From contig CAKKPE010000081.1 of the NCBI GenBank assembly GCA_919901565.1, forward strand, positions 1-36,364: DNA of 36,364 bases. Direction: 5' to 3'. Each line of letters begins with the position of its first letter. Within the stretch, counting starts at the first letter, position 1. Below, in pieces: positions 8,511 through 35,527 of this stretch. The notes under the pieces are model-generated. The model was given only the letters and a program-made list of their open reading frames with translations, searched no databases and had not been told where the DNA came from. Both the position numbers and the translations under genes were made by a program. This DNA is from a bacterium (GTDB lineage Bacteria; CG2-30-53-67).

Positions 8511-9533
8511 GTGGCAACCCCCACCACCTGCGGTATCGGTGCCTGTGCCTCAACCGGACAGATGGTGTGCCAGAGCGGAGCCATCGTCAACACCTGCGTG
8601 GCCGGAACTCCTGCTTCCTCGGACACAACCTGCAACGGCATAGATGACAACTGCAACGGCCAGGTGGATGATGGGTATGTCGCTACCCCCACCTCCTGCG
8701 GAGTGGGGGCCTGTGCCTCGAGCGGGCAGATGGCGTGCCAGAACGGGACCATCGTCAACACCTGCGTGCCCGGCACTCCGGCTCCTTCGGATACGACCTG
8801 CAACGGCATAGACGATAACTGTAACGGCCAGGTGGATGAAGGCTGCACCGACCTTAGCCTGAGCATCACCGACAGCCCCGACCCGGTCAAGACAGGCAGT
8901 GCATTGACCTACACCGTGACGGTCACCAACATCGGACCGTCGAGTGGAACGGGTGTTGTCGCAACTAATACCTTGCCGAACGGGGTGACTGGAAACGGAA
9001 TGCCCAGCCAGGGAAGTTGCACGGGATCGGGCACGATCACTTGCGCATTGGGAAATCTTAACAACGGTCAGAACGCCGTCATCACGATTAACGCCACGCC
9101 TTCCGCCGAGGCGATATTTGATCCCACGACAAACACGACCTTAAGTGTGAATGTAAGCGCAGCTGCAACGGTCTCCGGGAATCAAACCGACCCTGTCCCT
9201 GCCAACAATTCCGCCACGGTCAGTACCACAGTACAGCTTGCCTGCCTCGGAAAAGCTGTCACCAAGCGTGGAACGAGCGGAAATGACGGGACGAGTAAGA
9301 GCCCGTTTGCGGGAGGGAGTGGAGTGGATGTGATACACACCTTAAGCGGTGCGGACTGGATCGATGGAAAGGCGGGCAATGACACAATCTGCGGTGGGGC
9401 GGGTAATGACAATATTCTCGGTAACAACGGCAACGATGCCCTTTCCGGGAGCAGTGGTACCGATGTCTGTAATGGCGGCAGCGGCACCGACACCACGGAT
9501 GGAACATGTGAGACGGTATCGAATGTTCCCTGA
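8511..9533 (+). CDS. 3' part of the frameshifted protease: MopE-like repeats, DUF11 and RTX-like repeats
   Basis: This frame continues the preceding protein. It is open upstream to about 8451, and the residues before the nominal GTG at 8511 read 'SDTTCNGIDDNCNG', matching the internal repeats. It carries further copies of a ~50-residue unit ('TSCG.GACAS.GQM.CQ.G..V.TC..GTPA.SDTTCNGIDDNCNGQVDEG'). A DUF11-type beta-sandwich follows (about residues 112-245), then glycine/aspartate-rich RTX-like calcium-binding nonapeptides ('GNDTICGGAGNDNI') near the end. There is no signal peptide of its own, so as a separate gene it would not be secreted. It is most simply the C-terminus of the protease, separated by an 8-nt deletion or a sequencing error. 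No sorting signal is visible at the C-terminus. Confidence 0.75.
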   Translation: MATPTTCGIGACASTGQMVCQSGAIVNTCVAGTPASSDTTCNGIDDNCNGQVDDGYVATPTSCGVGACASSGQMACQNGTIVNTCVPGTPAPSDTTCNGIDDNCNGQVDEGCTDLSLSITDSPDPVKTGSALTYTVTVTNIGPSSGTGVVATNTLPNGVTGNGMPSQGSCTGSGTITCALGNLNNGQNAVITINATPSAEAIFDPTTNTTLSVNVSAAATVSGNQTDPVPANNSATVSTTVQLACLGKAVTKRGTSGNDGTSKSPFAGGSGVDVIHTLSGADWIDGKAGNDTICGGAGNDNILGNNGNDALSGSSGTDVCNGGSGTDTTDGTCETVSNVP

Positions 9534-9977
9534 AGGCTTATTTATAGGCCATGAGTGAAGGATTGGAATCAGGCACCCATTTTGGCGAAGAGCGGCTGCA
9601 GCGGTCTTGTTCCCGCAAGCCGGATGGTGACGATCTCGAGTGGAAGCATGAACGGACCGGCTTGGTCTCTTTTGTCTCTGTGTCAGTTCGATCATATCGG
9701 GATGGACAACGGCTCTCGGGCCGTTGTCCTCATCCCTCTGGCGGTCGTTTCAGCCTTCCTGAACCAAACACTGAGTACGCCGGTACACACAGGCCAGGTT
9801 CCTAAAAACAATCGGTTACTTCACGTCCTCCTCATCGTGTGTATCATCGAGTATTCACTCCCCCCGGTATTTACCGGCATTTCTTACTCCCTGTTTCAGA
9901 ACCGGTGTTTTGATAACCATCGGTATTCATTTGTGATTTATCTTTTCAGCCTAAGAAAATGCATTTAGTTCTGATTA
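9534..9977. other. Non-coding spacer with one strong hairpin
   Basis: Between the protease tail and the respiratory operon no convincing gene is seen. Overlapping frames exist (for example from 9555) but lack family resemblance and have poor codon character. The one clear structure is a perfect 10-bp inverted repeat, GGACAACGGC (9704-9713) and GCCGTTGTCC (9720-9729), with a 6-nt loop. It may end transcription of the protease, though no T-run follows. Confidence 0.4.
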
Positions 9978-9994
9978 TGGCACGAACCTTGCAA
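9978..9994 (+). promoter_or_regulatory. Sigma-54 (RpoN) promoter of the respiratory operon
   Basis: TGGCACG-N4-TTGCAA: the invariant GG is at 9979-9980 and GC at 9991-9992 with exactly 10 nt between them. This fits the sigma-54 consensus completely. Transcription would start near 10004 and run into the oxidoreductase gene at 10128. It implies control by an enhancer-binding protein that is not encoded in the window. Confidence 0.75.
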
Positions 9995-10014
9995 TAAAAA
10001 GATTATAGTAAAAG

Positions 10015-10046
10015 AATCATGGAATAGTACAATCATGGAATAGTAC
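10015..10046 (+). repeat. Perfect 16-bp tandem repeat upstream of the respiratory operon
   Basis: AATCATGGAATAGTAC occurs twice back to back (10015-10030 and 10031-10046). It lies between the sigma-54 site and a second possible promoter whose -35 box begins at the next base. It could be a pair of regulator sites, or part of the leader RNA. Confidence 0.6.
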
Positions 10047-10075
10047 TTGCCTGATTCTGATATAAATGGTATATA
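10047..10075 (+). promoter_or_regulatory. Second candidate promoter (sigma-70 type) of the respiratory operon
   Basis: TTGCCT at 10047-10052, a 17-nt spacer and TATATA at 10070-10075, ending 52 bp before the ATG at 10128. It is weaker than the sigma-54 site. The tandem repeat abuts the -35 box, where an activator would sit. Confidence 0.35.
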
Positions 10076-10127
10076 GAAAGTTGTCTGATGTCTTAAATCC
10101 CGCTAATTGACTGAATCGGGAATCTCC

Positions 10128-11942
10128 ATGTCCAAAACGAAATTTCAAGTGGTCATCCCGGATTACAAGTACTGGCGGCAGAACATCAAGTGCCAGACCG
10201 GATGTCCCGTGAACACGGACTCGCGCGGTTATGTGCGGGCCATCGCATCCGGTGATTATGAAAAGGCCTACTGGATCGCACGGACCCCGAACCCCCTGGC
10301 CTCGATCTGCGGACGGGTCTGCGGCGCTCCGTGCGAGATTGCCTGCAGGCGGGGGTGGATTGATGCCGCGGTCTCCATCCGTGCGCTCAAGCGTTTCGTC
10401 ACGGAAAAGTACGGGGTGGAGGCGGTCCTGCCGCCGGGCGATTATGCCGAAAAGTTCAGGTCCATCTATAAGGAAAAGGGGGACGGCATCCATGGGATCG
10501 CCAAAAACAAAGCAGTCATCTCCATCGTGGGGTCAGGCCCCGCGGGCCTTGCCTGCGCGCATGATCTCGCCCTGATGGGATACAGGCCGGTGATCTATGA
10601 GATGGAGAGGGTCGCCGGCGGCATGTGCGCTGTGGGCATCCCCATCTACAGGCTCCCCAGGGAACTCCTCCAGGCCGAGATCGATGCGATCCAGGCGCTG
10701 GGCGCTGAGATCCGGCTCGGTGTGCAGGTGGGCAAGGATGTGGCACTCAAGAAACTCTATGACGAATCCGCGGCCGTGCTCCTGGCCGTGGGCGCCAGGC
10801 GGTCGAGGATCCTTCCGGTCGAGGGATCGGAATCCAGGGGCGTGCTCGGCGGGGTCGAATTCCTCAGGGACGTGAGTATCGGGAGTTATATCAACATCGG
10901 CCCCAGGGTTGTGGTGGTCGGAGGCGGGAACGTGGCCTACGACGTGGCCAGGACCGCGGTCCGGCAGCGGGGCGTGGATTCGGTCTCGCTCGTCTGCGTG
11001 GAGGCAAGGGAGCAGATGCTGGCGGACAAGGTGGAGATAGAGGAGGGCGAAGAGGAAGGGGTTGTGCGGCTCAACAGCTTCGGACCCCAGCGGATCAATG
11101 CCGGAGCCGGCGGGATCGTCGAATCCATGACCTTCAAGAAAGTGATCTCGGTCTTCGACAGTGAGGGGAAATTCAACCCCCGGTATGACGAGTCCGAGAC
11201 CATGACCCTTCAGACGGATACGGTCATCTTTTCGGTGGGGCAGGCCTACGACCTTTCGTTCCTCGATAAGAGCGGCCTTGAGGTGGAGAGGTCGCCGAGG
11301 GGGATGATCCAGGCGGGCGCTGACGGCATCTCCACGTCTCTTGCAAAGTTATTCGTGGCAGGAGATCTGGCCTACGGGCCGAAACTCATTATCGATGCGG
11401 TGGCTTCGGGCAAGAAGGCGGCGAGAAAAATCCATGAGATGATTGCCTCGGTCCGGCTCAAGACCGTCATGGCGGAAGATCATCTTGAGCTTGCCGGAAA
11501 TAATGTCCCTCAATATCAAAGATACGAAAAGATCCCGAGGGTTGGGGTCCCGGCTTTTGATCCGGCCGAACGGATCAGGGTCCCGGTCTCCCAGGTGGAG
11601 AAGGGGTTCGACAGGGAGCCGGCGGAAAAACAGGGAGGGCGCTGTCTGAACTGCGCGGTCAACACGATCTTCAATGGGGACCGGTGCATCCTCTGCGGAG
11701 GTTGTGCCGATGTCTGTCCGGAGTATTGCCTGAGGCTGGTGAGCCTGGAGAACATCCGGGGAGACAGCAGCCTGGAAAAACTCTACGAGATGCGGTACGG
11801 GACTGCCGTTCCACGGGGCGGGTCCGCGATCATCAAGGATGAAGAGCGGTGCATCCGGTGCGCCCTCTGTGCCAAACGGTGCCCTGTCCAGGCGATTACC
11901 ATGGAAAGGTTCGTATTCAAAGAGGAGGTGAAGTGTGAGTAA
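10128..11942 (+). CDS. GltD-like FAD/NAD(P) oxidoreductase with C-terminal 2[4Fe-4S] ferredoxin domain
   Basis: A 604-residue protein of the glutamate synthase small-subunit family. The N-terminal Fe-S region has CQTGC (C22, C26) and C61-x3-C65-x3-C69-x3-C73. An FAD Rossmann motif GSGPAG (135-140), an NAD(P) motif GGGNVA (265-270) and a second FAD contact 'AGDLAYGP' (~411-418) follow. The C-terminus adds two ferredoxin motifs, '[12 protein letters not shown]' and '[12 protein letters not shown]'. Such modules pass electrons between NAD(P)H, flavin and Fe-S centres. No GltB-like glutamate synthase lies nearby. Instead it overlaps the Rieske gene by 8 nt, so it probably works with the Rieske/cytochrome b complex as an NAD(P)-linked subunit. 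No signal peptide is seen, which places it on the cytoplasmic face. ATG 10128 is preferred over the upstream TTG at 10107. The coupling to the quinone cycle is inference. Confidence 0.85.
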
Positions 11943-12408
11943 CGGTTTCACAGGTGAAACAGAAGGAAAGACCCGGAGAGATTTCCTTGGGCTTGCATCC
12001 ATGGGTGCTTTCTTTGCCGCTATGCTCACGGCACTTGGCGGGTCGCTCCGGATGCTCAAACCCACGGTCCGTTTCGAGGAGCCGTCCGCGTTCAAGATCG
12101 GCAAGGCCGAGAACTTCCCGGCAGGGTTGGTCAAGACGCTCGATGAAAAGAACGTGGTGATTTTTTCGGATGTAGACGGGCTGCACGCCGTATCCCTGAT
12201 CTGCACCCACCTCGGGTGTGTGGTCCAGGTCAAGGAAAAAGGGTTTGCCTGCCCCTGCCACGGGTCCAAGTACGATGCCATGGGCAAGGTCATCGGCGGG
12301 CCCGCTCCCAGGCCGCTTCCGTGGTACAAGATCAGCCTCTCCATAGACGGGAGCCTTGTTGTGGACACGTCCAGCGAAATCCCGGCGGGGACCAAGTTCA
12401 GGGTGTAG
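11935..12408 (+). CDS. Rieske iron-sulfur protein of a bc/b6f-type complex
   Basis: A 157-residue protein with a twin-arginine motif ('KTRRDFLG', R14-R15) followed by a hydrophobic segment (~18-38) that acts as an uncleaved Tat anchor. The Rieske fold binds its [2Fe-2S] cluster through C90-T-H92-L-G-C95 and C106-P-C108-H109-G-S111; the two extra cysteines (C95, C108) form the usual disulfide. It moves electrons from quinol at the Qo site of cytochrome b to a periplasmic cytochrome c. It starts at GTG 11935 inside the end of the oxidoreductase gene, with GGAGG about 6 nt upstream, which suggests translational coupling. The cytochrome b gene follows within 41 bp. The length is that of short b6f-like or Gram-positive-like Rieske proteins. 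Confidence 0.93.
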
Positions 12409-12449
12409 ATATTAGTGCTTGGAATTTAACTGTGATAATGAGGGGAGAG

Positions 12450-14012
12450 ATGGAGCAGACAACGCAATCCGGCATGGGTGCTTTCGGCGCCAACCTCAGG
12501 GGCCTCTGGAGGAATCTCAAATCGTCGATGATCCGGACCGGTATCCCGGTTTCTGACCGGGACAGGGCCGAGACCATGGTCGGGAATTTTTTCCTGCACA
12601 TCCAGGGCGTCAAGGTCCACAAGAACACCCTGCGGCCGACCTACACATGGGGCCTCGGCCTGATCTCCCTATCCCTTCTGCTGATCCTGACCTTGACCGG
12701 GATCATCCTCATGGTCTATTACAATCCGGGCATCCAGAATGCCTACAACACCATCAAGGACCTCTCCTTTGTCGTGGTCCCTGGCAAGTTCATGCGGAAC
12801 ATCCACCGGTGGGCCGCTCACGGCATGGTTGCCATGGTCATGCTTCACATGGCCAGGGTTTTTTATACCGGCTCCTACAAACAGGGGAGGGAATTCAACT
12901 GGCTGGTGGGGATCACCCTTCTGGTGGTGACCTTCGCGCTCAGCCTGTCAGGGTACATGCTCCCCTGGGACCAGCTGGCCTACTGGGCGCTCGTGATCGT
13001 GGCCAATATCCTTCAGTCGCCCAAGGAGATCACCGATGCCCTCGGCATCACACCGTATTTTGATCCCGGCGGTTTCTTCAAGGAACTCTTTCTCGGCGGC
13101 CGGATCGCCGGTCAGGAGTCGCTGACCCGGGTCTACCTCCTCCATGTGATCTTCTTCCCGGTCATGGTTTTCATCCTGGCGGGGATCCATTTCTGGAGGA
13201 TACGCAAGGACGGCGGGCTCTCCAGGCCTGAGCCCGAGCCGCGGCAGCCTTCGGACCAGGGACTCGATCCCATCCCAAGCCCACCGAAAAAGGGCGGGCT
13301 CTTCCCGACCTACAAGACCTACGGCCTCATGGAACTGGTCCGGGGGAAGACGCCGTCAGTGGACAAGGACGTGGAGAACACCGTGATGAGCTGGCCGAAT
13401 CTCCTGAAAGCGGAGCTTGCGGTCTTTATGCTCTGCATGGCTGTCATGATGGTCCTCGCATACTACTTTGACGCCCCGCTCAAGGAGCACGCCAACCCCC
13501 TGATCCCCGAGAACCCGGCCAAAGCGCCATGGTATTTTCTCGGCCTTCAGGAGCTGATCTCCTATTCGGCATTCATGGGCGGGGTGGGCCTCCCCGGCAT
13601 CACCCTGTTGGGTCTTGCGCTGATTCCCTATTTGGACCGGGAACAGGACCATATCGGGGTCTGGTTCTCGAACAGGCAGGGGGTATCGGTCACTCTTCAG
13701 ACCTTCTTCCTGAGCGCGGTGGTGACCATTGGTATCCTGGCCTTTACCGTGAATTACGGGTGGTTCAGGAACTGGTGGCCTGACATCCCGCAGCTGGTGA
13801 TCACCTTTATCAATCCCGGGACCGTGCTGGTCGGGATCTTTGTGCTCTGGTCATTCTGGGTCCTGAAAAGGACCGGATCGACCCGCATGGCCGCCATCAG
13901 CCTGTTCACGTTTTTCCTGGTCTCTTACGTGATTCTGACCTATATGGGTACGGAACTCCGGGGACCGAACTGGGGATTCTACTGGAGCAAGTCGCAATGG
14001 CCCATACATTGA
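12450..14012 (+). CDS. Cytochrome b (fused b6/subunit IV type) of a quinol:cytochrome c complex
   Basis: About 520 residues with 8-9 membrane helices. Haem b ligands are H119 and H133 in helix B (14 apart) and H232 and H247 in helix D (15 apart). The extra residue in helix D is typical of cytochrome b6 rather than mitochondrial cytochrome b. The b6-like half is followed by a long, Pro-rich hydrophilic linker (~252-315) and a subunit IV-like half carrying the Qo-site motif as A-P-W-Y (359-362) in place of PEWY. It oxidises quinol at the periplasmic Qo site and reduces quinone at Qi. A longer frame upstream (to 12216) is not cytochrome b-like. ATG 12450 or 12438 is the start, with GGGGAG between them. 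It sits between the Rieske gene and the molybdoenzyme genes. Confidence 0.92.
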   Translation: MEQTTQSGMGAFGANLRGLWRNLKSSMIRTGIPVSDRDRAETMVGNFFLHIQGVKVHKNTLRPTYTWGLGLISLSLLLILTLTGIILMVYYNPGIQNAYNTIKDLSFVVVPGKFMRNIHRWAAHGMVAMVMLHMARVFYTGSYKQGREFNWLVGITLLVVTFALSLSGYMLPWDQLAYWALVIVANILQSPKEITDALGITPYFDPGGFFKELFLGGRIAGQESLTRVYLLHVIFFPVMVFILAGIHFWRIRKDGGLSRPEPEPRQPSDQGLDPIPSPPKKGGLFPTYKTYGLMELVRGKTPSVDKDVENTVMSWPNLLKAELAVFMLCMAVMMVLAYYFDAPLKEHANPLIPENPAKAPWYFLGLQELISYSAFMGGVGLPGITLLGLALIPYLDREQDHIGVWFSNRQGVSVTLQTFFLSAVVTIGILAFTVNYGWFRNWWPDIPQLVITFINPGTVLVGIFVLWSFWVLKRTGSTRMAAISLFTFFLVSYVILTYMGTELRGPNWGFYWSKSQWPIH

Positions 14013-14082
14013 TAAATGGGGTCGGACTCTATTGGATATATTAATAGTCTCGAAATAGAATAGACATGGTTCATGAAATCTC

Positions 14083-14198
14083 CCCTTGCCCCTCTTTTCC
14101 AAAGAGGTGGAAATTCCTCCCTTTGACAAAGGGAGGTTGGGAGGAATTTTCGATATGATGTCGTTTTTATTAAGAACCTTAATAAGTAAGGTTCTTAA
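14083..14198. repeat. Cluster of hairpins between cytochrome b and the molybdoenzyme alpha gene
   Basis: Three inverted repeats occur in the 208-bp gap. CCTCTTT/AAAGAGG spans 14091-14107. CCTCCCTTT/AAAGGGAGG spans 14116-14136 and is embedded in a larger AAATTCCTCCC/GGGAGGAATTT pair (14111-14121 with 14139-14149). TTAAGAACCTT/AAGGTTCTTAA (14170-14198) has a 7-nt loop. The CCTCCC bases can pair with either of two GGGAGG copies, so alternative folds are possible. The last hairpin ends 22 bp before the alpha start, just before its ribosome site. Confidence 0.6.
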
Positions 14199-14220
14199 TT
14201 AATCCAGTCTGGAGCACACC

Positions 14221-17200
14221 ATGGAAAACAAGAGATCTGAGGTCACAAGACGGAATTTTCTGAAAGCGGCTGCCGGGACCGGGGTATTGCTGGTTGGGGC
14301 CGATGCGCATGCCCTGTTCAAGTTCCTGAAGCCCTTTGACGATGTGAACCCTCTGGCTGAATATCCGGACAAGGACTGGGAGAGGGTCTACAGGAACATC
14401 TACCAGGAAGACAGCAACTTCCATTTCCTCTGCGCGCCGAATGATACGCATAACTGCCTGCTCAAGGCGCATGTCAAGAATGGTGTGGTTACGAGGATCA
14501 GCCCTTCCTACCGGTATGGGGAAGCCACGGACCTCTATGGCAACAAGGCCTCCCATCGGTGGGATCCCCGTGTCTGCCAGAAAGGGCTGGGTCTGGTACG
14601 GAGAATTTACGGTGACCGCCGGGTCAAAGGGGTCATGGTCAGGAAGGGGTTCAAGGATTGGGTGGACGCCGGATTCCCAAGGGACAATATCACCGGAAAA
14701 CCGCCGGAAAAATATTTCAAACGAGGCGAGGACAAGTGGCTGAAAGCCGAGTGGGATGAAGCCTATGACATGGCAGCGAAGGCCCTTTATAACATCGCCT
14801 CGACCTATTCCGGCGACAGGGGCGGCAAGTACCTGCTCAAGCAGGGGTATGATCCGGCCATGGTGGAGGCCACCCACGGGGCCGGGACGCAGACCCTCAA
14901 GTTCCGGGGCGGGATGGCCTTCCTGGGCGCGATCCGGATCTTCGGATACTACCGGTTTGCAAACATGCTCGGCCTGCTCGACGCAGATATCCGCAAGGTC
15001 CCCGAGGATAAGGCCATTGGCGCCCGCGGGTGGGACAGCTATTCATGGCATACGGACCTTCCGCCCGGCCACCCCATGGTCACGGGTATGCAGACCAACG
15101 AGTTCGAACTCTTTGCCGTGGAACGGTCCAAACTGATCCTGGTCTGGGGCATGAACTGGATTACCACCAAGATGCCGGATTCGCACTGGCTGACCGAGGC
15201 CAGACTCAAGGGTTCCAAGGTCGTGTGCATCACCGTGGAGTATCCGGCCACGGCGGCCCGTTCGGATGAGGTGATCGTGATCCGGCCCGGGACCGACCCG
15301 GCCCTGGCCCTGAGCGCGGCCCAGGTCATCATTCAGGAGAAACTCTACGATGCGGAAAATGTGAAGCGGAACACGGACCTGCCGTTCCTGGTGCGGAGCG
15401 ATACCCTGCAGTTCCTCAGGCCCGAAGAGTTGATTGCCGGTTATACAAAGAAAATTCCGAAAAGGAACACGCAGATCCTGAAAAAAGATGCAAAGCCTTC
15501 TCCCACACGGGAACACGGGGACCAGCTCATCCCGGAAGAGATGCTTGAGGAATGGGGGGATTACCTGGTCTGGGACAACAAGACATCCGCTCCGGCGGCT
15601 GTGGGGCGGGATGACTACGGGGACCGTTTCAACGTCAACCCGGCGCTGGAAGGGGAGTATGAGGTGGCCACCCTGGACGGGAAGAAGGTGCAGGTGCGGC
15701 CGGTCTTCGATCTCATGAAGGAATACATCAACGGGAATTTCACTCCTGAACAGACATCCCGGGTCACCTGGGCGCCCAAGGATGCGATCATCGCCCTGGC
15801 CCGGCAGATCGCCGCCAACAAAAAGCAGACGCTCTTTGCCACGGGCATGGGTACCAACCAGTACTTCAACAGCGACCTGAAAGACCGGGCCATCTTTTTC
15901 CTCGCGGCGCTGACCGACAATATCGGACACTTCGGAGGCAACGTGGGGAGCTATGCCGGCAATTACCGCGCGGCCATCTTCGGAGGCATGGGGACCTACA
16001 TGGGAGAGAATCCCTTTGACGCGGAGCTCGATCCCGGGAAAAAGGTAAGGACCAAAAAATATTCGAAATACGAGTCCGCCCATTATTTCAATTACGGCGA
16101 CAGGCCTCTACGTGTCGGCGGGCATCTCTTTACAGGCAAGACCCATATGAACACCCCCTCCAAGTGCATGATGGTCAATAACTCCAACTCCCTGATCGGA
16201 AACGCCAAAGGGCACTACGACGTGGTCTTCAATACCCTCAAGGGATTCGAGATGATCACCGTCGCGGACTACTGGTGGACGGCCTCGTGCGAGTATGCGG
16301 ACATCGTCTGGGGCTGCGACTCTCCCGCGGAATTCAAGCAGCTCGATTTCACGGCCTCCTGCACCAACCCGTTTGTCCAGGTCTACCCGAGGACCCCGCT
16401 TCCCAGGATCTTCGATACCAGGCCCGACGTCGAGATCCTTTCCGGGGTGGCCCACTCGCTGGCCAAGGTCACAAAAGACAAACGGTTCGATGATTACTGG
16501 AAGTTCGTGCACGACGACCAGGTGAACGTCTATGCCCAGAGGATCATCGACGAGTCCGCCAATCTGGTCGGCTACACCATCGGGCAGCTGGAGGAGAACG
16601 CCAAGAAAGGGATCCCTGCGCTGATCAACTGCAGAACCTACCCGCGTATCTCGAGCTATGAGCAGGTCCAGGAAGGGAAGCCTTACTACACCAAGTCAGG
16701 GAGGCTCGAATTCTACCGGTACGAGAAGGAATGGGTCGAGCATGGCGAGAACATGATCGTCTACCGCGAACCCATTGATTCCACGATCCATGAGCCCAAT
16801 GTGATTGTTGGAAATAAACACATTGCGATCCGTCCGATGAAACCCGAGGACTGGGGATTCTCGTCGAGCGACCTATATACCGAGACCCGGCAGGTGCGTA
16901 ATGTGCAGCTGACCGTGGAGGAACTGCTCAAGACCAAGCATCCTCTGACCAAAAAGCAAGGGTTCCGGTTCATCATGCACACGCCCAAGTACCGGCACGG
17001 CGCACATACCACGCCTGCGGATACGGACATCGTTGCGGTATGGTTCGGGCCATTCGGCGATGTCTATCGAAGGGACAAGCGGACCCCCTTCGTCATGGAG
17101 ATGTACCTGGATATCAATCCCCTGGATGCCAGGGAGCTGGGCGTGGAAGACGGGGACTACATCTACATCGATGCCGACCCCGCTGATCGTCCATACAAGG

Positions 17201-17685
17201 GATGGAAGGAAGGGGAGTACACCTACAAGGTGGCCAGGCTCCTCTGCAGGGCGAGATACTATCCCGGGACGCCGAGGGGGGTCACCAGGATGTGGCACAA
17301 CAACTACTGCGCCACCCTCGGAAGCGTCAAGGGTCACGAAACCCGGGAAGACGGCCTGGCCAAGAACCCCGATACCAATTACCAGGCCATGTTCCGGTAC
17401 GGGAGCCACCAGAGCACGACCCGGGCCTGGCTGCGCCCCACGCTCATGACCGACTCCCTGGTACACAAGGACATGTTCGGGCAGACCATCGGCAAGGGGT
17501 TTGCGCCGGACATACACTGCACCAACGGTGCTCCCCGAGAGGGTTTTGTAAAAATCACCAAGGCCGAGGACGGCGGGATCGGCGGGAAAGGCCCGTGGAG
17601 GCCCGCGGCCAACCATATCCGGCCTACCCACGAGGATGAGAAGATGAAGGACTTTATGAGCGGGAAATATATCAGGATTGTTTAA
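14221..17685 (+). CDS. nxrA: Molybdopterin oxidoreductase alpha subunit, nitrite oxidoreductase/nitrate reductase-like (NXR clade)
   Basis: A 1154-residue type II DMSO reductase family catalytic subunit. A Tat signal ('VTRRNFLK', R10-R11, cleavage after ~A31) places it in the periplasm. The Fe-S site reads C71-x3-D75-x3-C79 ... C119. The Asp replaces the third-position Cys of NarG and the first ligand is Cys rather than His, a pattern I recall from Nitrospira NxrA. The Mo ligand is D279 in 'HTDLPPGHP'. Long stretches ('[21 protein letters not shown]', '[25 protein letters not shown]') resemble Nitrospira NxrA from memory. It should interconvert nitrite and nitrate; reversal as a periplasmic nitrate reductase is equally possible, and other oxyanions cannot be excluded. 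A GGAG site precedes the ATG. Partners beta, gamma and chaperone follow. Confidence 0.88.
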
Positions 17686-17820
17686 CCGCCCCAACGGGGA
17701 AGTCATTTATACATAGAGTCATAAGTCAACGCCAACTTGTCATTCCCCGACTCGAAGACTGTGTCACAATTATGGAGTTTCAGTTCTTTTGGGGACAAAG
17801 TTTAGGGTAATCAATAAATT

Positions 17821-17909
17821 TCCTCTCCCCATGAATGGGGAGAGCTTGGGTGAGGGGTTGACCGGAAAGAGCCCCCTCATCCTAACCTTCTCCCCAAAAG
17901 GGAGAAGGA
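17821..17909. repeat. REP-like pair of inverted hairpins between alpha and beta genes
   Basis: CTCTCCCC/GGGGAGAG (17823-17830 with 17837-17844) is followed by GGGTGAGGGG. In opposite orientation come CCCCTCATCC and CCTTCTCCC/GGGAGAAGG (17886-17894 with 17900-17908). The two units form a larger imperfect palindrome, as in paired REP elements. It lies in a 254-bp gap inside the operon; the rest of that gap shows nothing recognisable apart from the beta ribosome site. Confidence 0.6.
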
Positions 17910-17939
17910 ACATAAGGAAATAAAAGGAGAAAAGATAAC

Positions 17940-19070
17940 ATGCGCAAAGTCTACAACTGGCAGATCGGGAGGAACGCTTCGTACATCTATCCGGAGAACA
18001 GACCCAAGAAACAGTGGGCCATCATCTTTGATCTCAATAAGTGCATCTCCTGCCAGACCTGCTCCCTGGCCTGCAAAACGACCTGGACGTCGGGCAAAGG
18101 CCAGGAATATATGTTCTGGAACAACGTGGAGTCCAAACCCTATGGCGGCTACCCCATCGGATGGGACCTCGGCATCCTGTCCAAACTCGGGCCCCAGGAA
18201 TGGAAAGGGAACAAGTATACAGGCAAGACCCTGTTCGAGGCGGCCGATAAGGACGAGAAGATCCTGTACCACCTGCCCGAAGATGCCGACTGGGCCCATC
18301 CGAATCTCGGGGAAGACGAGGCCTCCGGCATGATCAACCAGGGGGACTGGATAGCGACCTATCCCCACAGGATCTGGATGTTTTATCTGCCGAGGACCTG
18401 CGCGCACTGCACGTATCCGGCTTGTCTCTCCGCGTGCCCGAGAAAGGCCATCTACAAGAGAGAGGAAGACGGCATTGTCCTGATCGACCAGTCGCGCTGC
18501 CGCGGCTACAGGGAGTGCGTCCGGGCCTGCCCGTACAAGAAGTCCATGTTTAATGTCGAGACCAGGGTGAGCGAGAAGTGCATCGGGTGCTATCCCAAGA
18601 TTGAAAAAGGGGAGATGACGCAGTGCGTAACCAACTGCATCGGGAAGATCCGGATCAACGGGTTTGTCAGCACACCGGACAATGCCAGGAAAGACAATCC
18701 CATGGATTACCTGATCCATTACAAGAAGATTGCTCTTCCTTACTATCCTCAGTTCGGGCTGGAGCCCAACCTTTATTACATACCTCCCATCCACGTTGCT
18801 CCATCGTTCCTGGAGCAGATGTTCGGCCCGAAGGTGGAGAAAGCCATGGGGACTTACATAAATGCAAGGAACGATCACGAACTTCAGGCGCTTCTTGTAC
18901 TCATCGGGAGCACGGAGAAGATCCTGCACACGTTCAAGGTGGATGAAGAATACGCCTACGGTTACGATGAGCAAGGGAAAGAGGTCGTAAAGGTCCCGAT
19001 CACCGAACCCAAGATTATCAGGGACTATCATGACGCGAAGCTCAATGCATACAGACAGAATACACCATAA
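17940..19070 (+). CDS. nxrB: Four-cluster iron-sulfur beta subunit of the NXR-like enzyme
   Basis: A 376-residue NarH/NxrB-type electron transfer subunit. Cysteine groups: C35/C38/C41/C45; C154/C157/C162/C166; C187-x2-Y190-x2-C193-x3-C197; and C214/C217/C229/C233. In the third group an aromatic residue (Y190) stands where a fourth Cys would be, as W does in NarH, so this cluster is expected to be [3Fe-4S]; the others are [4Fe-4S]. The protein carries electrons between the alpha Fe-S centre and the haem-bearing gamma subunit or cytochrome c. It has no signal peptide and is expected to be co-exported with the Tat-tagged alpha subunit. AAGGAG lies ~12 nt upstream of ATG 17940. The length is near that of type II beta subunits such as NxrB. 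Confidence 0.9.
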   Translation: MRKVYNWQIGRNASYIYPENRPKKQWAIIFDLNKCISCQTCSLACKTTWTSGKGQEYMFWNNVESKPYGGYPIGWDLGILSKLGPQEWKGNKYTGKTLFEAADKDEKILYHLPEDADWAHPNLGEDEASGMINQGDWIATYPHRIWMFYLPRTCAHCTYPACLSACPRKAIYKREEDGIVLIDQSRCRGYRECVRACPYKKSMFNVETRVSEKCIGCYPKIEKGEMTQCVTNCIGKIRINGFVSTPDNARKDNPMDYLIHYKKIALPYYPQFGLEPNLYYIPPIHVAPSFLEQMFGPKVEKAMGTYINARNDHELQALLVLIGSTEKILHTFKVDEEYAYGYDEQGKEVVKVPITEPKIIRDYHDAKLNAYRQNTP

Positions 19071-19115
19071 ATAATTTTATTATTTCTTAATAAAATTATA
19101 TTGGAGGGGAACGCC

Positions 19116-19985
19116 ATGAGAGCCAAAAGTTTTTTGTTTATTCTTGCATGCTTTATATTCGCCGGTACGGTTTATGCCGGGGAAACTCCCTTTTCGGAGT
19201 TCACGTCCTACCAGAAGGCGGTCGACGTGCAGCAGATCGGACTGAATGACCCGGTCTGGGATACAGTGATTCCTGTCAGGCACCCCCTCCAGCGGCAGTT
19301 TCTGGTTCTTCCCAAACCGGCGGAGGTGGGCGTCAAGGAGGTTTTCTTCCAGTCGGTCCATGACGGGAAATACATCGCCTTCCGGCTTACCTGGAAGGAC
19401 AGCACCAGGAACGACTCGATCAACGTCGTGAATTTCTCGGATGCTGCTGCGCTCGAATTTCCGGTCCGGAGGGACCCTCTCCCCAAATACTTCATGGGAG
19501 AGGAGGGGAAACCCGTGCATGTCATCTACTGGAAGGCATGGAGAAGCAAGGACCAGGATCAAGGTTTTCAGACCGTCAAGACCGCATATCCGAACATGAC
19601 CAGCGATATCTATACATTCGACTACAGTGTGAAAGGGAAAGGCACGGACAAGACGCAGCAGGAGAAGGAGATCTTCATCCCGGGAAGGGCCGCAAATAAC
19701 CCCCTCTCCTTCCCGCACAAGGAGATCGTCGAGGAGCTTTCCGCTGAAGGGCCGGGGACGCTCACGTCAAAAAATATCGAGAACACAAGGGGTGTTGCAG
19801 AATGGAAGAATGGAACATGGACAGTCCTCTTTGTCCGGCCTCTTGCCGTTAATGATGCTTCAAGTGTGCAGTTCAGGATCGGAGAAAAGATGCCTCTGGC
19901 CATTGCCGTCTGGGAAGGAGGCCATCTGGAGGTTGGAGGCCGCAAGGCGGTGAGCCCATCCTGGGCCGAAGTCAAGGTGGAGTAG
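19116..19985 (+). CDS. Haem b-binding gamma-like subunit (ethylbenzene dehydrogenase gamma/NxrC family)
   Basis: A 289-residue protein with a clear Sec signal peptide (residues 1-21, ending 'GTVYA'). The mature part is a beta-rich domain resembling the gamma subunits of periplasmic type II DMSO reductases (EbdC, DdhC, SerC, and candidates for NxrC), which bind one haem b through Met and Lys ligands. 'YFMGEEGKPVHVIYWKAW' (about residues 126-143) is the sort of region where the Met ligand lies; assigning ligands needs alignment. ATG 19116 is preferred to an in-frame TTG at 19101 because GGAGG (19103-19107) sits at the right distance and the signal peptide follows. It would take electrons from beta and pass them to a cytochrome c or the Rieske/cytochrome b complex. 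It lies 45 bp after beta and 3 bp before the chaperone gene. Confidence 0.75.
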   Translation: MRAKSFLFILACFIFAGTVYAGETPFSEFTSYQKAVDVQQIGLNDPVWDTVIPVRHPLQRQFLVLPKPAEVGVKEVFFQSVHDGKYIAFRLTWKDSTRNDSINVVNFSDAAALEFPVRRDPLPKYFMGEEGKPVHVIYWKAWRSKDQDQGFQTVKTAYPNMTSDIYTFDYSVKGKGTDKTQQEKEIFIPGRAANNPLSFPHKEIVEELSAEGPGTLTSKNIENTRGVAEWKNGTWTVLFVRPLAVNDASSVQFRIGEKMPLAIAVWEGGHLEVGGRKAVSPSWAEVKVE

Positions 19986-19988
19986 ACC

Positions 19989-20690
19989 ATGGAAAATATT
20001 ATTTATCTCTACAAGATGATGTCCCTGGGGTTTGCCTATCCCGACGAGAACGGATGGAAGTTCCTCGAAGAGTTTCTTCCGAAGTCGGACCTCATTTTCA
20101 AGGGCGCTCTTCCCAGGAAACTCGGGGAACTGAGGGAATATTTCATTACGCACAGGCCTTCCCTGGAAGAGATGCAGATGGAATATCTTTCTTTTTTCGA
20201 CATGGGGGCAAAGGTTATCCCTTACGAGACCGAATACGTTCAGGAAAAAATATCCAGGAAGCCCCGCCTTCTGGCTGACATAGCCGGTTTTTACAAGGCA
20301 TTCGGATTCGAGGCGGCCAGTGATGCGAAGAACAGGGAGTCCATCGATCATATCTCTGTGGAGCTTGAATTCATGGTTCTCCTTTACATGAAGATGCTTC
20401 AGGCCATGGAACAGGGGTTTGAAGACAGGGTGCAGGTTGTCGAGGATGCAATCAGGAAATTCCTGGAAGACCATCTTGCCGGCTGGGGCTTCCTCTATTG
20501 CAGTCTGATACAGGAATCGGATGGCCATGAGTTCTATAAAAAACTGGCCGGACTTTTAAGAGCGTTTCTGCAGGATGAGCTGACAAAATACGGAATGGAC
20601 CCCGGTCCCTTACAGCGTGGTCTCTTCAACCCATGCCAGGGAAGCACAGGGTGGGAAGACTTTACCTGCGGGCCAGTGCCGCCGTTATAA
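19989..20690 (+). CDS. TorD/NarJ-family chaperone for the molybdoenzyme
   Basis: A 233-residue, almost wholly helical, soluble protein. The pattern 'LYKMMSLGFAYPDE' near the start, 'LEEMQMEYLSFFDMG.KVIPYETEY' near residues 60-80 and 'DHISVELEFMVLLYMKMLQA' near 120-140 match TorD/DmsD/NarJ chaperones. These bind the Tat leader and apo-catalytic subunit and hold it until the molybdenum cofactor is inserted. The position, 3 bp after the gamma gene and in the same operon as a Tat-tagged alpha subunit, is typical. A conserved Cys-containing tail ('NPCQGSTGWEDFTCG') is unusual and might bind metal or form a disulfide. ATG 19989 overlaps closely with the end of the upstream gene, suggesting translational coupling. 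Confidence 0.85.
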   Translation: MENIIYLYKMMSLGFAYPDENGWKFLEEFLPKSDLIFKGALPRKLGELREYFITHRPSLEEMQMEYLSFFDMGAKVIPYETEYVQEKISRKPRLLADIAGFYKAFGFEAASDAKNRESIDHISVELEFMVLLYMKMLQAMEQGFEDRVQVVEDAIRKFLEDHLAGWGFLYCSLIQESDGHEFYKKLAGLLRAFLQDELTKYGMDPGPLQRGLFNPCQGSTGWEDFTCGPVPPL

Positions 20691-20729
20691 AGAACTCCGA
20701 ATTCTAATGTCCAATAGGTGAGGGAGAAA

Positions 20730-22169
20730 ATGTACAATCGACTCTATTCATGGTTGCTGCTGATATCCAGCGTGGTCTTTGTGGTCTATTCGGTGCAGGC
20801 GATCTATACGGACAATATCTCCCCGGAATGGATGCGTTACCAGGAAAAATACAAGAAGCTGGTCATCAAGAGGGCGTCGGATGAAAAGACGCGTGAACTG
20901 GCGAAGGAATTCAAGATAGACATTCAGCAGGTCTATCTGGCCGATTTGAACAAAGTGGACCGCTGCATGAGCTGTCATATCGGCATAGACAATGAAATGG
21001 TGTCCGATGTGGACCAGCCGATCCGGAGCCACAGCGGAGATTACCTGAAGAACCATCCGCCGGACAGGTTCGGGTGCACCATCTGTCACCACGGCCAGGG
21101 CCGCGCCATAGATATCAGGAATGCGCACGGCATCGGCCACGAGACGCACTGGGACCAGCCGATCCTTCCGACCGAATACATGCAGAGCGCCTGCCCGTCC
21201 TGCCACAACATGGGCTGGCTCTCAAAAAACGGAGGGGAGAAGATAGCGAAGGGGGAAGCCATATTCAAAAAAAGGGGCTGCCTGGGGTGTCATAAGATGC
21301 AGGGCCGCGGCGGGATCCTGGGTAAAAAGCTGGACGGTGTGGGCTCGCAGCCCATTGCCTACTTCCCCATGGCCCATGTGCGGGGAGAGAGGACCGTTTA
21401 TGCCTGGATGAAGCAGCACTTTGACGATCCGAGGAACATCGTGCCGCAGAGTGAAATGATAGCGGACCTGACCGATGAGGAGTCCATCCTCCTGACCACG
21501 TATGTGCTATCCCTGCGGAGCGAAGAAATTCCAAGAGATTATAGACATCATGACGAGTCTGGTTATGCACCGGAAGAGCCGGGAGACCCAGGCGAATCCA
21601 TGTACAATCTTTACTGCGTCGGGTGCCATGGCACCGGCAAAGACAGCGTCTATGACGAGGTCTTCAAGAGAACTATCCCTGCGATCCAGAACCCGCCTTT
21701 CCTGGCTGCGGTCAGCGACAAGTATCTCCATACCGTAATTTCCGAGGGGAGGAGCGGTACCCCGATGACGTCATGGAAGGAGGCCGCAGCCGGATTGAAA
21801 CCTGAAGAAATTGACGCCATCATCAGGTATATCACCCGGGACAGGCCTGCGGCCGGACCGAAGCCCTTTGAGTTCGCAAAATACCAGGGGAATGCGAAAC
21901 GGGGAGAGGAGATCTTCAACATCCGGTGTGTGGACTGCCACGGCAAGGGAGGGGAGGGCGGTGTCGGTCTGAACCTGAGAAATCCGGTGGTCCAGAAGTA
22001 TGCCGACCCGGAGTTTCTGGCCATTACCCTCAGGGACGGGAGGGTCGGGACGCACATGGTTTCCTTTGGTTCACAGGGCATGGGCCTGAACGATCAGGAT
22101 ATCGTGGATGTGATCACTTATGTGAAGACGTTATCCGGCAAACAAATTCCTTACCCTTTAGCCCCTTGA
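20730..22169 (+). CDS. Membrane-anchored hexahaem cytochrome c
   Basis: A 479-residue protein with an N-terminal hydrophobic anchor (about residues 7-26) and six CxxCH sites: C79-H83, C116-H120, C155-H159, C184-H188, C296-H300 and C400-H404. The last three sit in separate class I-like domains with possible Met ligands (M243, M346 and one in 'GTHMVSFG' near 442). The first three are in a distinct N-terminal domain. It lies at the end of the operon, where cytochrome c1 or f would be expected for a Rieske/cytochrome b complex, and no such gene is present here. It is therefore the likely electron link between the b-type complex and the molybdoenzyme or a terminal oxidase. ATG 20730 with GAGGGAG just upstream is chosen over GTG 20718. 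Confidence 0.88.
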   Translation: MYNRLYSWLLLISSVVFVVYSVQAIYTDNISPEWMRYQEKYKKLVIKRASDEKTRELAKEFKIDIQQVYLADLNKVDRCMSCHIGIDNEMVSDVDQPIRSHSGDYLKNHPPDRFGCTICHHGQGRAIDIRNAHGIGHETHWDQPILPTEYMQSACPSCHNMGWLSKNGGEKIAKGEAIFKKRGCLGCHKMQGRGGILGKKLDGVGSQPIAYFPMAHVRGERTVYAWMKQHFDDPRNIVPQSEMIADLTDEESILLTTYVLSLRSEEIPRDYRHHDESGYAPEEPGDPGESMYNLYCVGCHGTGKDSVYDEVFKRTIPAIQNPPFLAAVSDKYLHTVISEGRSGTPMTSWKEAAAGLKPEEIDAIIRYITRDRPAAGPKPFEFAKYQGNAKRGEEIFNIRCVDCHGKGGEGGVGLNLRNPVVQKYADPEFLAITLRDGRVGTHMVSFGSQGMGLNDQDIVDVITYVKTLSGKQIPYPLAP

Positions 22170-33866: not shown

Positions 33867-35399
33867 TTAAGGCCCGCCGCTGCTTTTGGGCCGCCAGTCG
33901 ACAGCGCCGGAGTGCGTCTGCCCCAGGTAGGCGTAGCCGATGCTGATGGCTCCGACCTTCTGATGGGTGTCAGGGAGATCGGTATATTGAGCATCGCGCT
34001 GGGATGTCACGTATTTGAGCGTGATGCCGTGGAGGTTGTAGATGCGCACCGTAAGCGATACGTCGACGCGTATGATATTCTCATTTCCCCCGTTCTCGTC
34101 GGAGGCGGTGTCGCTGACGTAGTAGTCTCGCCCCGTCATGTCGAGGGAGACGCGATCACTGAAGATGAGGTTCAGGGCGAGCAAGCCCTGCGGCGTAACA
34201 CCATTGTGATAGTCTCGCTCACCGACGCCACGAATAGTGCCGGCCGAGCCATAACCGACGCCGGCGAGTACCGAACCCTGCAGTGCCAACATGGGTGAGA
34301 GCCACCATTGAGCCGTGGTGCCGAGCGCAGCCGCAGTGGTGGAGATGCGAAAGATCTGCGGCGCGATGTAGTCGTAAGTGCCGTAAAGACCCCACACGCC
34401 GCGGTAGTTGTCGCCCAACGAGTAGTCGGTTCCGCAGAGCAGGCCGCGGGTGATGACGTTCTCTAAGGCGTTGCTGCTGGCGGCGGTGAACTGGAAGTGG
34501 AAGTAGTCGAACGGGCGTGTGTAATGATACCCGGGTTTGCCGGGAAGCCCATAGGCGATGGTGAAGTTAGCAACCGCCTCACCAACCTTGTAGCTCTGCG
34601 GAATGGACGGCTCTTCCGCATTCCGGTTCACATTCACGTCCGAGCTCACGGTCGAGTTGAAGTTCACGCCCAGATCTAAGCGCGTGTAGACCGCTGGATT
34701 GTTACTCCGGAACACTCCGTCGAAACGGTCACCGAAAGCCAGCCGGTTGAAACCGGTGGACGGCGAAATCGCGGCTGCGCCGAGTTCGCGCCAGAATCCG
34801 GGCCTTCCGCCCTCGCCGCTTTCAAGCAAGAGGCTCGCCATGCGAAACAGCGGTTCACCAAGGAAGCTGCCCCCAAATCCGGTCGTGAACTGGTCGTTGA
34901 TCGAGGGCTTGGTGGTTTCGCCCGCCACTTCCCAGGCCGCGCTGCCCAATATGGTGTAGGCCGACGATTCCCAGTAACCGAGGCCGGCTGATCGGGCGAA
35001 GCCGTGATACATCGAACCCTGATAGGGATGCGCGAACTGGTTGATGGCAAACGGGTCGCTGTCGTAGACCCAATCACCGGTGAAGTTCGTCTTGATGGAG
35101 GAGAGGGTGGAATCGTAAACAGAGGAACCGGAGAACCTGCGATCGTACTGGTTCAGCAGGAAATCGAATAGAAATATGTCGGCAGCCGGGATGAGGTAGT
35201 CCTTGCCGTCTCCAATTCCCCAGTTCATCACCGGCTTCGGCTTGTCGTCGGCGAATGCGGTCGGCGCGCGTTGCTGCTCTTTGGTATCGAGAGCGGGGTC
35301 TTCTTCGGCAAAAACGGCGCCCGGAGTCATCAAGGCAAGCGAGAAAACAGTAGCAACGAGCATACAGCGGATCGCGTGTTCTATCTGGGTTAATGTCAT
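33867..35399 (-). CDS. DUF3943 outer-membrane-like protein
   Basis: A 510-residue protein with a signal peptide (about residues 1-31, ending 'GAVFA'). Its core shows the DUF3943 pattern: 'DPFAINQFAHPYQGSMYHGFARSAGLGYWESSAYTILGSAAWEVAGETTKPSINDQ' and 'GFGGSFLGEPLFRMASLLLE' (about 115-195). Many alternating hydrophobic/polar strands follow, ending in a predicted beta strand. DUF3943 proteins have no proven function, but they look like outer-membrane or periplasmic beta proteins. It is 77 bp upstream of the PAP2 gene on the same strand, so both may be co-transcribed; a lipid- or envelope-related role is only suggested by that neighbour. Confidence 0.8.
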   Translation of the reverse strand: MTLTQIEHAIRCMLVATVFSLALMTPGAVFAEEDPALDTKEQQRAPTAFADDKPKPVMNWGIGDGKDYLIPAADIFLFDFLLNQYDRRFSGSSVYDSTLSSIKTNFTGDWVYDSDPFAINQFAHPYQGSMYHGFARSAGLGYWESSAYTILGSAAWEVAGETTKPSINDQFTTGFGGSFLGEPLFRMASLLLESGEGGRPGFWRELGAAAISPSTGFNRLAFGDRFDGVFRSNNPAVYTRLDLGVNFNSTVSSDVNVNRNAEEPSIPQSYKVGEAVANFTIAYGLPGKPGYHYTRPFDYFHFQFTAASSNALENVITRGLLCGTDYSLGDNYRGVWGLYGTYDYIAPQIFRISTTAAALGTTAQWWLSPMLALQGSVLAGVGYGSAGTIRGVGERDYHNGVTPQGLLALNLIFSDRVSLDMTGRDYYVSDTASDENGGNENIIRVDVSLTVRIYNLHGITLKYVTSQRDAQYTDLPDTHQKVGAISIGYAYLGQTHSGAVDWRPKSSGGP

Positions 35400-35527
35400 G
35401 GCAAATTGAATAGCAAGATGTGTGCCAGAACTGTTGTTGGCAGGACAGGAGTTTCTATGATGTTGGAAACATTGAAATTTCAGTGAGGACGACGATGGTG
35501 GAATGATCCTGTGAAAGGCGCCGCCTT

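Follow-up and report, generated by a model that had tools for sequence, protein, structure and literature searches.

How is transcription of the NXR-like operon in this window (the whole stretch of DNA that was analyzed, 36,364 bp, which is the entire contig C81 of a 2.96-Mb genome in 160 contigs) initiated, and would sigma-54 (RpoN) control set it apart from its enzyme family? The operon comprises eight co-directional plus-strand genes, from 10128 to 22169, encoding a GltD/PRK12771-like NAD(P)-binding Fe-S oxidoreductase (gene 1, 10128 to 11942), a Rieske [2Fe-2S] protein (gene 2, 11935 to 12408), a cytochrome b of the b6/ExtP-like type (gene 3, 12438 to 14012, start approximate), an NXR-type molybdopterin alpha subunit with a Tat signal (gene 4, 14221 to 17685), a NarH/NxrB-type 4Fe-4S beta subunit (gene 5, 17940 to 19070), an ethylbenzene-dehydrogenase-like gamma subunit of the NxrC type (EB_dh; gene 6, 19101 to 19985), a NarJ/TorD-type chaperone (delta; gene 7, 19989 to 20690), and a cytochrome c with more than one heme-binding domain (gene 8, 20718 to 22169). 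The alpha, beta, EB_dh-type gamma, and NarJ/TorD components assign the operon to the NXR family. The best match of the alpha subunit was Kuenenia NxrA 7b04, over its full length (residues 7 to 1153, E 3e-284), followed at a wide distance by the next type II Mo-enzymes and by NarG, in agreement with an earlier note that had called the operon NXR-like; the second-best match was PDB 4ydd, a perchlorate reductase.

The sigma-54 element upstream of the operon

The same note had reported a full-consensus sigma-54 element with GG and GC exactly 10 nt apart, and both the sequence and its place proved exact. Plus-strand positions 9978 to 9994 read TGGCACGAACCTTGCAA, i.e., TGGCACG-AACC-TTGCAA, an exact match to the -24/-12 consensus TGGCACG-N4-TTGCW, with GG at 9979 to 9980, GC at 9991 to 9992, and a spacing of 10 nt. 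The element points toward the operon and lies 134 bp 5′ of it, in a 594-bp intergenic region (9534 to 10127) bordered by a gene for an RTX/DUF11 protein, ending at 9533, and by the first ATG of the operon at 10128. No convincing sigma-70 promoter match was found between 9978 and 10128.

Such a match is hardly expected by chance. With base composition as the basis and only exact matches to the pattern TGGCACGN4TTGCW counted, the two strands of the window should contain 0.0098 occurrences, and the element's strand of the 594-bp intergenic region 8e-5. The position weight matrix (PWM) score of the element was equalled in none of 2,000 Markov simulations of the 300 bp 5′ of gene 1 (p 5e-4), the minus-strand and reversed-matrix controls for the window PWM test being at chance level.

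Two other features were seen in the intergenic region. A 137-aa open reading frame (9555 to 9968) terminates 5′ of the element, and a strong hairpin, GGACAACGGC-N6-GCCGTTGTCC, follows the preceding gene at 9704 to 9729, where a clear T run is absent.

RpoN, enhancer-binding proteins, and other sigma-54 sites in the genome

The cellular machinery for such a promoter, which the earlier note had proposed to look for, is encoded in the genome. There is one rpoN gene (G000 C41, E 5e-60), its product having an intact RpoN box (ARRTVAKYR), and 21 Sigma54_activat matches. About 17 of these are full NtrC-type enhancer-binding proteins (EBPs), most of them built as REC-AAA-HTH, and two more are degenerate. 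In 10/10 EBPs scanned, REC, AAA+, and lid domains were detected, and HTH_8 scored above the threshold used in five of the ten.

Exact sigma-54 sites numbered five genome-wide versus 0.8 expected from composition, and a block-swapped control pattern gave none. All five fall between genes rather than inside them, and each is oriented toward a gene; their targets are a type IV pilin, a GAF/GGDEF diguanylate cyclase-like protein (identified by eye), two small proteins, and the NXR-family operon. The sites include one at pilA, a classic sigma-54 target. With up to one mismatch allowed, 28 sites were found versus 5 for the reversed pattern, a compositionally imperfect control; ~16 of the 28 are intergenic and correctly oriented versus 2 to 3 expected from the 17% intergenic share of the genome (binomial ~7e-11). 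Since the sites of this genome cluster between genes and face the right way, an exact match in such a location is very probably functional. We are accordingly fairly confident that the sequence at 9978 to 9994 is a genuine sigma-54 promoter, and it is very likely a working one.

The sigma-54 mechanism requires an activator, and the earlier note had envisaged a dedicated EBP. No EBP gene was found on the window contig, which leaves a dedicated activator next to the operon unsupported, and any activator therefore acts in trans; across the genome, an EBP gene lies within 3.4 kb of 6/17 intergenic sigma-54 sites. In the mechanism we propose, RpoN-polymerase would sit inactive at the element until one of the NtrC-type EBPs encoded elsewhere in the genome, answering a two-component signal, opens the promoter. 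The start site, activity, transcript extent, activator, and signal of this promoter are all features that we infer.

A search for a shared activator-binding motif upstream of the element found none. A perfect inverted repeat, CCGGTA-TT-TACCGG, is located at 9864 to 9877, ~127 to 140 bp 5′ of the predicted transcript start. As an EBP site this palindrome is a candidate only: the exact repeat occurs as a single copy in the genome, and near matches show no enrichment, at 14 versus 10 for the control.

Promoters of related operons

For comparison, we analyzed 80 relatives of the alpha subunit with their flanks, plus Nitrospirota genomes, using a scan matrix built from 16 other sites in the genome, with the window site excluded; the score of each upstream region was compared with Markov simulations, and the minus strand and the reversed matrix served as controls. 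The operon was absent from the seven genomes of genus, family, or phylum neighbors searched (0/7). The four closest syntenic operons, all from Nitrospirota (L051, L169, L170, and L171), match the window operon in all eight genes and in their order, their alpha and beta subunits being 69 to 75% and 74 to 77% identical, respectively, to those of the window. The earlier note had expected a true element to be conserved in relatives, but none of these four operons has a sigma-54 element upstream at p<0.05 (0/4). Conservation in orthologues supports a sigma-54 promoter and is not required for the class. Among a wider set of operons with the same gene order, sigma-54-like elements were found in 2/20, a chance-like frequency.

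In place of the sigma-54 element, the four closest operons have in common a CRP/FNR-type palindrome (GTGA-N6-TCAC-like) 5′ of gene 1: TGTGACAAAAGTCATA, TGTGACTTAAGTCACT, AGTGATTTAAGTTACT, and AGTGATATAAGTTACT, with single-locus p values of 0.005, 0.005, 0.025, and 0.06, which are optimistic because the motif was recognized after the sequences had been seen. Directly 5′ of gene 1 in L051 lies a divergently oriented gene of the CRP family, with cNMP_binding and HTH_Crp_2 domains. The four operons appear to use a CRP/FNR-type operator. The window, in contrast, has no such palindrome (p 0.51). Because the closest relatives carry this operator, absence of the element from them points to promoter turnover rather than to a false site in the window. 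The same observation could be turned around: the consensus match would be fortuitous and the operon would be transcribed from a sigma-70 promoter governed by a CRP/FNR-type regulator, as appears to be the case in its closest relatives, and CRP/FNR-family genes are indeed present in the genome of the window. We consider this very improbable, given the minute number of exact matches expected on the intergenic strand, the confinement of the genome's exact matches to positions outside genes, the missing palindrome, and the lack of a good sigma-70 match near gene 1.

Sigma-54-like elements were found upstream of more distant members of the family, in 12/19 regions for the NXR-like operons of Myxococcota/Bdellovibrionota (Fisher 7e-13; controls, 0/19 reversed and 4/19 minus strand) and in 14/24 for Nitrospira nxrA (Fisher 4e-15; controls, 1 to 2 of 24), these combined p values being too small because the scanned rows are phylogenetically related and a few loci are represented twice, which makes the contrast with the controls the safer statement. 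In the Myxococcota/Bdellovibrionota, a conserved gene of ~255 aa with no Pfam match precedes the NXR-like alpha gene, and the elements are located just 5′ of it (L059, 9093; L062, 9046; L063, 9172; L066, 9039; L072, 7758; L079, 9144; L122, 7108; and others), the Myxococcota sites lying close to the first gene as judged by homology-based starts. Yet another regulator type accompanies the acidobacterial/poribacterial operons, in which an Rrf2-family gene is situated directly 5′ of the GltD-like first gene (L073, 3173 to 3604; L097, 3844 to 4371; L113, 3671 to 4426).

In the alpha tree, the window is nested inside the four closest copies (SH-aLRT 100), and these five members together form the sister group of the Myxococcota/Bdellovibrionota clade (SH-aLRT 100). 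The latter relationship, together with the elements in the sister group, would fit a sigma-54 promoter that was ancestral to both clades and was lost from the other Nitrospirota copies. This is unlikely, as all four copies among which the window nests are devoid of the element. Moreover, the element of the Myxococcota lies before another first gene, so that the two promoters are not positionally homologous. The simplest reading is that the window lineage switched to sigma-54, the promoter being specific to that lineage. More broadly, and tentatively, NXR-family operons may have been rewired repeatedly between transcription systems, with CRP/FNR-type control in the syntenic Nitrospirota, Rrf2 in Acidobacteria/Poribacteria, and sigma-54 in Nitrospira, Myxococcota/Bdellovibrionota, and the window, the last representing a recent swap inside a CRP/FNR-type clade. 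If true, the swap to sigma-54 would subject the NXR-like enzyme to on/off regulation by a two-component system. With one set of eight genes placed behind different promoters, the window and its syntenic relatives provide a natural comparison set for regulator change between lineages.

The earlier note's view of RpoN control as unusual for an NXR-like operon is wrong for the NXR family, because sigma-54 has been reported at Nitrospira nxr: most Nitrospira have NXR operons preceded by sigma-54, and sigma-54-dependent regulators adjoin nxrAB in N. moscoviensis (PMC6606698, PMC7522533). The Nitrospira and Myxococcota/Bdellovibrionota counts above speak against it as well. The nxrAB loci of Nitrospira (N. 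moscoviensis, N. defluvii, and strain KM1) encode the same enzyme family, but their alpha subunit is only ~41% identical to that of the window. Operon make-up also differs, the window operon starting with the GltD-like, Rieske, and cytochrome b genes, and EBP genes are found in 5/12 of the longer Nitrospira nxr loci whereas the window operon has no adjacent one. A further parallel is provided by the perchlorate reductase islands (pcrABCD with pcrPSR), which encode, like the window alpha gene, a related type II Mo-enzyme, and in which PcrR is a sigma-54-type activator. The islands have a dedicated two-component system that is required for function (PMC4623255); unlike the window operon they encode their own regulators, and enzyme and substrate differ. 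Sigma-54 control having already been suspected for the NXR family in Nitrospira, the window is a good new example and not a new phenomenon; of greater interest is that the operons closest to it lack the element and appear to carry a CRP/FNR-type switch instead. The window also contributes a clear example to the limited and mostly genome-based evidence for RpoN/NtrC-type control of NXR-family enzymes, whose place in the nitrogen cycle is the nitrite/nitrate step.

Predicted leader and reach of the transcript

Transcription from the element would start near 10004 if the usual spacing of ~12 nt between GC and start site applies, giving a predicted leader of ~124 nt. Directly after the predicted start, the leader contains a 16-bp perfect tandem duplication (AATCATGGAATAGTAC, two copies) at 10015 to 10046. 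An RNA element in the leader was considered and rejected, as there was no Rfam match and no unusual folding (z ~0).

From this start, the element would drive genes 1 to 3 (GltD-like, Rieske, and cytochrome b) and, probably, all of the NXR-family operon as far as 22169. Two internal gaps bear on how far the transcript reaches: one of 208 bp before alpha (14013 to 14220), with hairpin repeats at 14086 to 14150 (CCTCCCTTTGACAAAGGGAGG), and one of 254 bp between alpha and beta (17686 to 17939), with hairpin repeats at 17820 to 17910 (CTCTCCCCATGAATGGGGAGAG); the alpha-beta gap of L051 is only ~34 bp. Because these gaps hold repeat-like hairpins, where the transcript could end or other promoters could lie, a single transcript over the eight genes is presumed only. 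The element might then be real and drive just the GltD-like, Rieske, and cytochrome b genes, with a separate NXR promoter located in the gap at 14013 to 14220. Besides the hairpin repeats, a weak sigma-70-like match at 14033 to 14061, inside that gap, and a cytochrome b-to-alpha distance of ~3.8 kb in L171 are consistent with such an arrangement. It is nevertheless rather unlikely in view of the gene order kept in the four relatives, the cytochrome b-to-alpha distance of only ~40 bp in L169 and L170, and the absence of a strong terminator from the gap before alpha. Control of the whole operon by the element at 9978 to 9994 is the reading that we regard as probable.

Elsewhere in the window, a second, near-consensus sigma-54 site, TGGCACACATCTTGCTA, is located on the minus strand at 35411 to 35427. 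It precedes the listed start of a DUF3943 gene (33867 to 35399) by only ~12 nt, and the true start of that gene may be further in than listed.
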